Shown here one piece after another: positions 16,079 to 18,077 of a stretch of DNA of 20,433 nucleotides; position 1 is the stretch's first letter, and each line of letters starts with the position of its first letter. The DNA comes from a virus: the IMG/VR virus record IMGVR_UViG_3300025652_000716, positions 1 to 20,433 of that record; one strand, written 5' to 3'. Under the pieces are notes generated by a model that had not been told where the DNA came from, did no database searches, and saw nothing but the letters and a program-made list of their open reading frames with translations. A program made the translations under genes and the position numbers.

Positions 16079-17347
16079 ATGAGAAATGAAGAACTAATGC
16101 AAAAGTGGAAGCCGATTCTAGAGCATGGCGCTCTGCCCGGCATCCAAGATTCTCACAGAGCGGCCGTAACAGCTACTCTCTTGGAGAATACAGAAACATC
16201 CATGCAAGAAGGTGAAAGCCTAGGCGCATCTGGATCGTTACTTTCAGAAGCCGCACCAGCTAACTCAACTGCTGATATGGCTAAATATGATCCCGTACTG
16301 ATCTCTCTAGTACGCCGTGCAATGCCTAACTTGGTTGCATATGATATCGCAGGCGTACAGCCGATGACTGGCCCAACTGGCTTGATCTTCGCTATGCGTT
16401 CTAAGTACGAAGACACATCTGGTAAGCCAGAAGCCTTCTACAGCGAAGCAGATACCGATTACTCCGGTGCTGGTACTCATGCTAACGCATTGGGTGCAGG
16501 ATCAGAAACAACTGGTACTGGCCTTGCTACTGCTGATGCAGAAGCTTTGGGTGACGGGTCAGCCGCTGAGTTCGCTCAGATGTCTTTCTCAATCGAAAAA
16601 GTATCTGTAACTGCTAAGTCACGTGCTTTGAAAGCTGAGTACACAACTGAACTTGCTCAAGACCTTAAAGCTATCCATGGTTTGGATGCTGAGACTGAGT
16701 TAGCAAACATGTTGTCTGCTGAGTTGCTTGCTGAAATCAACCGTGAAGTAATCCGTACAGTGTACACAAACGCTGTAGCTGGTTCTCAAGGTGGGGTTGC
16801 TACTAACGGTACATTCAACTTAGACGTTGATGCAAACGGTCGTTGGTCAGTAGAGAAGTTCAAAGGCTTGATGTTCCAAATCGAGAAAGAAGCGAATCAA
16901 ATCGCTAAAGACACTCGTAGAGGAAAAGGTAACATGATCATTTGTTCATCTGATGTTGCATCTGCACTTCAAATGGCTGGCGTTCTTGATTACACACCTG
17001 CTCTTAACTCTAACAATCTGAACCCAGATGACACAGGCAATACTTTTGCTGGTGTTCTTAACGGTCGCTTCAGAGTATACATCGATCCATATGCTGGTGC
17101 AAACTACATGGTAGTAGGCTACAAAGGTTCAAGCGCATTTGATGCCGGACTTTTCTATTGCCCATATGTGCCATTACAGATGGTTCGTGCAGTTGGTGAG
17201 AACAGCTTCCAGTCGAAGTTGGGCTTCAAGACTCGTTACGGAATGGTTTCTAACCCATTCGCTCAAGGTGCAACTGTTGGATCTGGCGCACTTGCTGCCA
17301 ACACCAACGTGTACTACAGACGTACCGCAGTTACCAACTTGCTGTAA
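16079..17347 (+). CDS. 23: Major capsid protein gp23
   Basis: A 422-residue HK97-fold capsid protein. It aligns by eye with T4 gp23: KWKPILEHGALPGI at the start, VRRAMPNLVAYDIAGVQPMTGPTG, KSRALKAEYTTELAQDLKAIHG, FQIEKEANQIAKDTRRGKGN, VYIDPYAGANYMVVGYKG and GFKTRYGMVSNPFA. A gp21 cleavage site LSE|AA is seen at 55-59, at the place of the T4 site LTE|AE, giving a mature chain of 365 residues. T4 gp23 is 521 residues; the 100-residue deficit falls mostly between GVQPMTGPTG and KSRALKAEY, where T4 carries its insertion domain. Ribosome binding site AAAAAGGAG at 16064-16072. Three in-frame stops (TAATAATAA) end the gene, followed by an intrinsic terminator. Confidence 0.96.
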   Translation: MRNEELMQKWKPILEHGALPGIQDSHRAAVTATLLENTETSMQEGESLGASGSLLSEAAPANSTADMAKYDPVLISLVRRAMPNLVAYDIAGVQPMTGPTGLIFAMRSKYEDTSGKPEAFYSEADTDYSGAGTHANALGAGSETTGTGLATADAEALGDGSAAEFAQMSFSIEKVSVTAKSRALKAEYTTELAQDLKAIHGLDAETELANMLSAELLAEINREVIRTVYTNAVAGSQGGVATNGTFNLDVDANGRWSVEKFKGLMFQIEKEANQIAKDTRRGKGNMIICSSDVASALQMAGVLDYTPALNSNNLNPDDTGNTFAGVLNGRFRVYIDPYAGANYMVVGYKGSSAFDAGLFYCPYVPLQMVRAVGENSFQSKLGFKTRYGMVSNPFAQGATVGSGALAANTNVYYRRTAVTNLL

Positions 17348-17399: not shown

Positions 17400-17428
17400 A
17401 AAGAGGCTCTTCGGAGCCTCTTTTTTTT
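17400..17428 (+). terminator. Intrinsic terminator after gp23
   Basis: Stem AAAGAGGCTC (17400-17409) and GAGCCTCTTT (17414-17423) closed by a UUCG tetraloop between C and G, followed by a T-run to 17428. This is a textbook rho-independent terminator, about 52 bases after the gp23 stop. It closes the head-gene transcripts. Confidence 0.93.
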
Positions 17429-17433
17429 GTCTG

Positions 17434-17441
17434 TATAAATA
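17434..17441 (+). promoter_or_regulatory. Late promoter motif just after the gp23 terminator
   Basis: Exact TATAAATA six bases after the terminator T-run. It lies 117 bases before the next ATG and 81 bases before a second exact box (17523). If used, its transcript would begin at the foldable stretch 17446-17519. Confidence 0.65.
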
Positions 17442-17445
17442 TAAC

Positions 17446-17519
17446 AGTATGGCAGAGTATCATGGGGCGTGATGCTTAATAGAGGCGACCCACTAAAGTC
17501 CGCTACCGTCTACCATACT
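17446..17519 (+). other. Foldable gene-less stretch between two late promoter boxes (candidate RNA element)
   Basis: A closing stem AGTATGG (17446-17452) with CCATACT (17513-17519) is extended after one mismatch by AGA (17454-17456) with TCT (17509-17511). Inside lie hairpin GTATCAT/GTGATGC (17457-17463 and 17469-17475, loop GGGGC, two G-T pairs) and hairpin GCGAC/GTCCGC (17485-17489 and 17498-17503, one bulge). Together this is a possible three-way junction. AGAGTAT (17454-17460) can also pair with ATACTCT (17515-17521), giving a rival fold. It is tRNA-sized but has no T-arm. I recognise no known RNA family. A 19-codon ORF (17472-17531) is an alternative reading. Confidence 0.35.
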
Positions 17520-17522
17520 CTA

Positions 17523-17530
17523 TATAAATA
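17523..17530 (+). promoter_or_regulatory. T4-type late promoter for the gp3-position gene
   Basis: Exact TATAAATA, 28 bases before the ATG at 17559, the same spacing as at other late genes in this window. It is the most likely promoter for the tail-tube-like gene. Confidence 0.75.
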
Positions 17531-17558
17531 GTACTATACAACTTTGATAGAGGATATC

Positions 17559-18077
17559 ATGTCAACATCAAATTTCTTATCGCCAGTAGAGTTTAAGTTA
17601 GTGATCAATAGATTGCCTAACACAGAGTTCTATGTTCAACAGATTAATCTACCTGGTCTGAACTCTGGATATGCAGAGAGATCGACTCCCTTCAAGAACA
17701 TCTATACACCTGGTGATAAACTAATTTTTGATGACTTGAACATTACGCTAGTCGCAGATGAAAATCTATCATCATTTAGAGAGTGTTCTGATTGGCTAAC
17801 TGCTATAACAAGAGCAGAGGGATTCGATGGATACAAAGGACTACAAGCACCTGTAGTAGGAGGTTCTACGCAGTTAGATGGTACAGGAACTGGCAGTATG
17901 TCAGACGCAAGTTTGATTGTGATGGACAGCAACAAAAACGCTAACATTCAGGTGTCGTTTAAAGATGTATTCCCAGTTAGCATTGGTCCAATACAGCTAA
18001 ATACAAGTGATTCAGATGTAGTACCACCTACATTCGATGTGACGTTTAAATATAGTAGCTATACTATAAAAGTTTAG
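17559..18077 (+). CDS. Tail-tube-like protein at the gp3 position
   Basis: A 172-residue protein. The ATG at 17559 has AGAGGA (17549-17554) upstream; the in-frame TTG at 17544 lies upstream of that site and is unlikely. It reads SPVEFKLVINRLPNTEFYVQQINLPG, PFKNIYTPGDKLIFDDLNITLVADENL, then FKDVFPVSIGPIQLNTSD and FDVTFKYSSYTI. The order matches gp19 in this window: an FxVxI start, QxxxIP, GDxxFxxxxxT with DE, and FxxxFP with FDVTFxY at the end. It is therefore a tube-family paralogue, probably a tail completion or baseplate tube-cap component. In T4-like cyanophages the gene between gp23 and uvsY is usually called gp3 (tail completion). Position fits, but I cannot confirm direct similarity to T4 gp3. 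Late promoter upstream; the uvsY promoter begins right after its stop. Confidence 0.65.
   Translation: MSTSNFLSPVEFKLVINRLPNTEFYVQQINLPGLNSGYAERSTPFKNIYTPGDKLIFDDLNITLVADENLSSFRECSDWLTAITRAEGFDGYKGLQAPVVGGSTQLDGTGTGSMSDASLIVMDSNKNANIQVSFKDVFPVSIGPIQLNTSDSDVVPPTFDVTFKYSSYTIKV

Follow-up and report, generated by a model that had tools for sequence, protein, structure and literature searches.

A conserved structured RNA of 72 nt lies between the genes for the major capsid protein gp23 and a gp3-like tail protein in a marine-type T4-like phage. We consider it rather probable that this RNA represents a new family of small structured noncoding RNAs of marine T4-like phages, which has its own late promoter and probably acts in trans.

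Results

Genomic setting of the RNA

The DNA analysed, hereafter the window, is the whole 20.4-kb virus record IMGVR_UViG_3300025652_000716 (20,433 nucleotides). Its gene order gp23-gp3-uvsY-uvsW matches that of Kyanoviridae-type phages, such as Melnitz and Mosig, and exact copies of the late promoter box TATAAATA occur nine times in the window, compared with 1.6 expected. The features surrounding the RNA are as follows.

16079..17347, + strand: gp23 major capsid protein gene, the upstream neighbour of the RNA (Pfam PF07068, E 2.7e-144)
17400..17429, + strand: intrinsic terminator that ends the capsid transcript (a 10-bp stem with a TTCG-type loop, then a T run; kept in relatives)
17434..17441, + strand: late promoter box 1 (TATAAATA, exact match), predicted to drive the RNA; 5 nt before stem P1
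17447..17518, + strand: conserved structured RNA, 72 nt, predicted to begin at +1 (covariance model R1, 94.4 bits; covariation)
17523..17530, + strand: late promoter box 2 (TATAAATA, exact match), predicted to serve gp3; a direct repeat with box 1 where the cassette is gained or lost (single-box empty sites in L002, L003, L022 and L023)
17559..18077, + strand: gp3-like tail completion/tube protein gene (PHROG 45, tail tube; gene order in relatives)

A first-pass annotation of the window had pointed to a terminator after gp23, two exact late boxes and a 117-nt gap before gp3. All of these were borne out: the terminator stem occupies 17400-17423 and is followed by a T run, both boxes are where they had been placed, and gp3 starts at 17559, 117 nt past the first box. 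As judged from its sequence, the gp23 terminator keeps capsid transcription separate from the RNA. In the window there is no terminator 3' of the RNA, which could therefore be no more than the first part of a longer gp3 mRNA; box 2 is a gp3 promoter that bypasses the RNA.

The distance between the end of the late box and the start of P1 is exactly 5 nt in seven flank variants (the window, L046, L053, L056, L057/L203, L095 and L119). In T4, late transcription starts approximately one helical turn downstream of the promoter, an 8-bp TATA box (PMC2988020). Because the spacing between box and stem is fixed, this geometry predicts that transcription should begin at the first paired base, 17447.

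Comparative evidence for the fold

The elements of the RNA are listed below.

17447..17456, + strand: closing stem P1, 5' strand GUAUGGcAGA (compensatory changes in 8 of 10 pairs)
17457..17475, + strand: hairpin P2 with the invariant GGGGC loop at 17464-17468 (100% of cells paired, double changes in 4 of 7 pairs; a loop-relaxed scan gave no new member)
17476..17481, + strand: junction J2/3, UUAAUA, the same in all copies (a relaxed scan gave chance matches only)
17482..17507, + strand: third arm, consisting of the base pair 17482-17507 (G-C or U-A) and P3; pairs 36-61 and 41-55 covary
17509..17518, + strand: closing stem P1, 3' strand UCUaCCAUAC (P1 covariation)

The three-way junction that had been proposed by eye is real, but its closing stem comprises 10 bp with one C.A mismatch, rather than the 7 bp originally drawn. 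P1 and P2 (7 bp, 17457-17463 with 17469-17475) are stacked, with no intervening nucleotide, while P3 consists of 4 bp (17485-17488 with 17500-17503) and its loop opens with an invariant CCC (17489-17491). Invariant columns account for 33 of the 72 positions, many of them unpaired, and the core (GGGGC loop, CTTAATA and ACCC) does not vary across copies.

Taken alone, the window sequence folds within the range expected by chance (z -1.3 to -1.4); when the 72-nt core was shuffled 200 times, 22 of the shuffles folded equally well. The fold is judged to be real on the comparative evidence and not on single-sequence folding. Covariation analysis, one of the checks suggested in the first-pass annotation, was applied to 16 distinct sequences and a hand-drawn structure of 22 pairs (P1, 10 bp; P2, 7 bp; the base pair of the third arm; and P3, 4 bp). 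In this set 92.3% of cells were paired, compared with 75.2% in shuffles; double-sided changes were found in 15 of the 22 pairs, but in only 2 to 5 when the structure was slid along the alignment; and the covariation score of 0.531 (0.212 in shuffles) was reached by none of 500 shuffles. A lineage-thinned set of ten representatives gave the same result (0.585 versus 0.234 in shuffles), and RNAalifold returned nearly the hand-drawn fold. The sequences of P1 and P2 vary heavily yet their pairing is retained, with compensatory changes in P1, P2 and P3 that include G-U pairs. Such changes, together with an invariant single-stranded core, indicate that selection acts on the RNA.

Two other readings of the interval fared differently. 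The rival pairing AGAGTAT/ATACTCT, which had been proposed to break the closing stem, is present in the window. In a comparison of 12 sequences, however, it displayed zero double changes, one of its pairs was broken in 8 of the 12, and all 500 shuffles equalled its score. A two-state switch through this helix, which unlike P1 lacks covariation, was therefore rejected. The window also contains a 19-codon open reading frame (17472-17531) whose ATG is preceded by GGGG, and it had been suggested that this leader peptide is what is expressed. In many copies, however, the start codon position reads ATA, ACG, TCA or TTG; the fold is retained in L203, L104 and L146 despite frameshifting indels; internal stops occur; and substitutions track pairing, not codons. 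The frame is thus refuted as a conserved feature, and we give its translation next to no chance.

Distribution and gene contexts

Copies were gathered from gp3-anchored loci and from degenerate DNA scans of IMG/VR. The RNA is present in about 48 other IMG/VR contigs, as 45 full copies and three that are cut off at contig ends, never more than once per contig and always in the same orientation with respect to the late promoter and the genes. Scans in which the GGGGC loop, the UUAAUA junction or all sequence 3' of the junction was relaxed recovered no genuine extra member; four candidates (L227-L230) were discarded as chance pattern matches. The copies occupy at least eight gene contexts, listed here as upstream/downstream neighbour with examples.

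gp23 / gp3: the window
topoisomerase II / gp3: L095
ORF / uvsY: L046
gp32 / curli-like cluster: L203, L057
gp32 / YRG peptide: L052
DUF6267 / cytidyltransferase, via YRG peptide: L059, L195
D5-like regulator / DnaB-type helicase, with a terminator 3' of the RNA: L075, L082
PDDEXK_5 endonuclease and tRNA pieces, on a cyanophage-like contig with a wcaG RNA: L104, L194, L196
further carrier locus: L146

Several of these loci have features of their own. In L052, L059 and L195 the RNA is followed immediately by a second conserved stretch, CGCATTKGTTCATGCGTTAAAAGA, and then by the short 'YRG' peptide ORF (MSYELTYRGVKYTK..., MNTLMYRGASQQ...). This stretch, which had no Rfam match at gathering thresholds, may be another structured leader. 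The genes 3' of the RNA in L203 and L057 are curli-like (CsgG/CsgA-like by eye) and adjoin gp32 in a phage contig. In L104 and L196, and also in L194, scrambled tRNA pieces surround the RNA, reaching approximately 700 bp upstream and 110 bp downstream. The order in L104 and L196 is a tRNA 5' half (GCCCCGT...), a complete tRNA-Arg within a 12-bp inverted repeat (CTTAGAACAACC/GGTTGTTCTAAG), a late box, the PDDEXK_5 endonuclease gene, a tRNA 3' half, the RNA and a tRNA-Val-like gene. The last of these is missing its own 5' acceptor strand, and its 3' acceptor, ACGGGGC, fits the distant tRNA 5' half.

Gain and loss of the cassette

Presence of the RNA is patchy among close relatives. A single TATAAATA stands in place of box, RNA and box in L002/L003 and L022/L023, and L020 also lacks the RNA, while L024, whose gp3 is 97% identical to that of L022/L023, carries it. 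In L018, whose gp3 is identical to the gp3 of carriers, a remnant that keeps the two ends of the closing stem but has lost the interior lies approximately 70 to 30 bases before the gene. In L048 (4174-4292) the RNA and the second late box are as in the window and precede a different gp3 allele, an arrangement suggestive of recombination at the late promoter. On this sequence evidence, the RNA unit behaves as a dispensable promoter-flanked cassette that is exchanged at TATAAATA repeats.

Relation to known RNAs

An Rfam search had also been suggested at the outset; at the gathering threshold of Rfam 15 no family matched the RNA in the window or at nine other loci. At E<=10 only matches far below threshold appeared, none of them to a ribozyme model; a ribosomal leader match in L104 (E 0.0035) was rejected, as it scores below its cut-off and falls on the other strand. 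In isolate phages blastn gave short partial matches only, most within annotated genes. Model R1, when run on 11 isolate records, scored 22 bits in Synechococcus phage B23, within a CDS, and 12 bits in the unannotated AG-345-O18, which was taken as chance. Five pattern matches in bacterial genome contigs did not score with the model, and matches in plasmids were short, partial and located in BRO genes.

Among characterized systems, T4 RNAs C and D (rnaC/rnaD, species 1 and 2) are small late phage RNAs of unknown function (PMC9697503). They resemble the RNA described here in being small and phage-encoded, and one lineage of the latter lies among tRNA genes; in contrast, they are 139 and 119 nt long rather than 72, and show no match to it in sequence or structure (the best score of R1 over the T4 region, with filters off, was 6.7 bits, E 1.1, which is chance level). 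The manA and wcaG motifs (RF01745, RF01761) are structured RNAs found mainly in marine metagenomes and T4-like cyanophages (PMC2864571). L104 contains both a wcaG RNA and the new RNA, but the two motifs are candidates for gene control in 5' untranslated regions with recurring gene associations, and the new RNA matches neither of them in Rfam. As each named family tested fails a defining feature, the RNA is classed as a new family within structured phage RNA.

Discussion

The data presented here support the suggestion, made in the first-pass annotation, that the interval encodes a dedicated small late RNA: compensatory changes conserve the fold, several lineages keep the predicted 5' end and the late box in register, and the gene contexts are unrelated. 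We propose that transcription of the RNA, from a late promoter of its own, begins with the first nucleotide of P1, such that the 5' end would be buried in the stem of a presumably stable molecule. A loop-loop contact, probably made between the GGGGC loop of P2 and the third-arm CCC, would shape the invariant core (UUAAUA, AG, AAAGU and UAY); we infer this contact, because both of its sides are invariant and covariation is thus uninformative. In the window the 3' end is probably freed by cleavage in the A/U-rich flank before box 2 and trimming to P1, whereas at other loci it would be provided by a terminator or by tRNA processing. The folded RNA would then act in trans, probably by binding a partner through the invariant core, and would move as a cassette between late promoter boxes. 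A stand-alone trans-acting RNA is favoured because the downstream gene is not fixed, the 5' end is buried in P1, and some copies lie in terminator and tRNA contexts.

It could be argued that the RNA is instead a 5' leader, either a riboswitch or a translational leader, that tunes or senses for gp3. Indeed, it lies directly upstream of gp3 in several lineages (the window, L053, L119, L095 and L048), including L095 in which a topoisomerase replaces gp23, and this position could hint at a role in cis. The class of the downstream gene is not constant, however, as gp3, uvsY, the curli-like cluster, the YRG peptide, the DnaB helicase and a tRNA-like sequence all occupy this position; the RNA is followed by a terminator in L075/L082 and by the tRNA-like sequence in L104; and close relatives keep gp3 without the RNA. 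The two-state leader envisaged in the first-pass annotation fits poorly with these differing downstream genes, with the second promoter that skips the RNA and with an alternative pairing that does not covary, leaving no conserved switching helix. We therefore regard a gp3 leader as improbable, and as less likely than a stand-alone RNA.

A new self-cleaving ribozyme would also be a small, compact fold in which the unpaired core is invariant and the stems vary, carried by phages next to no constant partner gene, and both the conservation pattern and the scattered contexts of the RNA fit this description. Self-cleavage could, in addition, set the end of the RNA at the main locus, where a terminator is absent. 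The succession of a hairpin-loop GGG, UUAA-UA and then CCC recalls the pistol ribozyme, which has three stems and a pseudoknot (Harris 2015, PMC4604425). Pistol is likewise a small RNA associated with phages, with G's in a hairpin loop that could pair with C's of a later joining strand. The pistol model (RF02679), however, matched the RNA neither in the window nor at the other loci searched, no Rfam ribozyme model did so even at E 10, and the sequence names no cleavage site. In topology, too, the RNA is unlike pistol, since its hairpin is nested within the closing stem and the P1-P2 junction has no unpaired bases. A self-cleaving ribozyme is thus the leading exotic alternative but an unlikely identity for the RNA, and a similarly small chance attaches to the broader proposal of a self-cleaving, otherwise catalytic or ligand-binding RNA class, built on a three-way junction and a GGGGC/CCC contact, that has been moved in late-promoter cassettes of marine T4-like phages.

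The mobility of the unit raises the further possibility that it is a DNA-level mobile or recombination element, a promoter-flanked repeat whose RNA fold has no function. PeSLs are promoter/stem-loop mobile cassettes of T4-type phages, comprising an early promoter and a stem-loop terminator. By description, the unit reported here resembles them, as it is flanked by promoters and appears to be gained and lost by recombination at promoter sequences: gain and loss fall exactly between TATAAATA repeats, leaving empty single-box sites, and differing gp3 alleles are found behind the same RNA and box (L048). Unlike PeSLs as described, its promoter is a late one, the cassette contains no terminator, and the conserved, functional-looking fold is not a simple hairpin. 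The compensatory changes with their G-U pairs, the invariant single-stranded core and the single orientation of all copies relative to the late promoter and genes make a purely DNA-level element very unlikely.

Stable small RNAs encoded by phages have been known since early work on T4, and the functions of rnaC and rnaD are still not known. The new RNA constitutes a family that is compact and independent. Comparison supports it strongly, its start site is predicted and natural pairs of genomes with and without it exist, so that it is directly testable. This study indicates that the late regions of marine phage genomes hold RNA genes that are missed by protein annotation and are mobile as promoter-flanked units.
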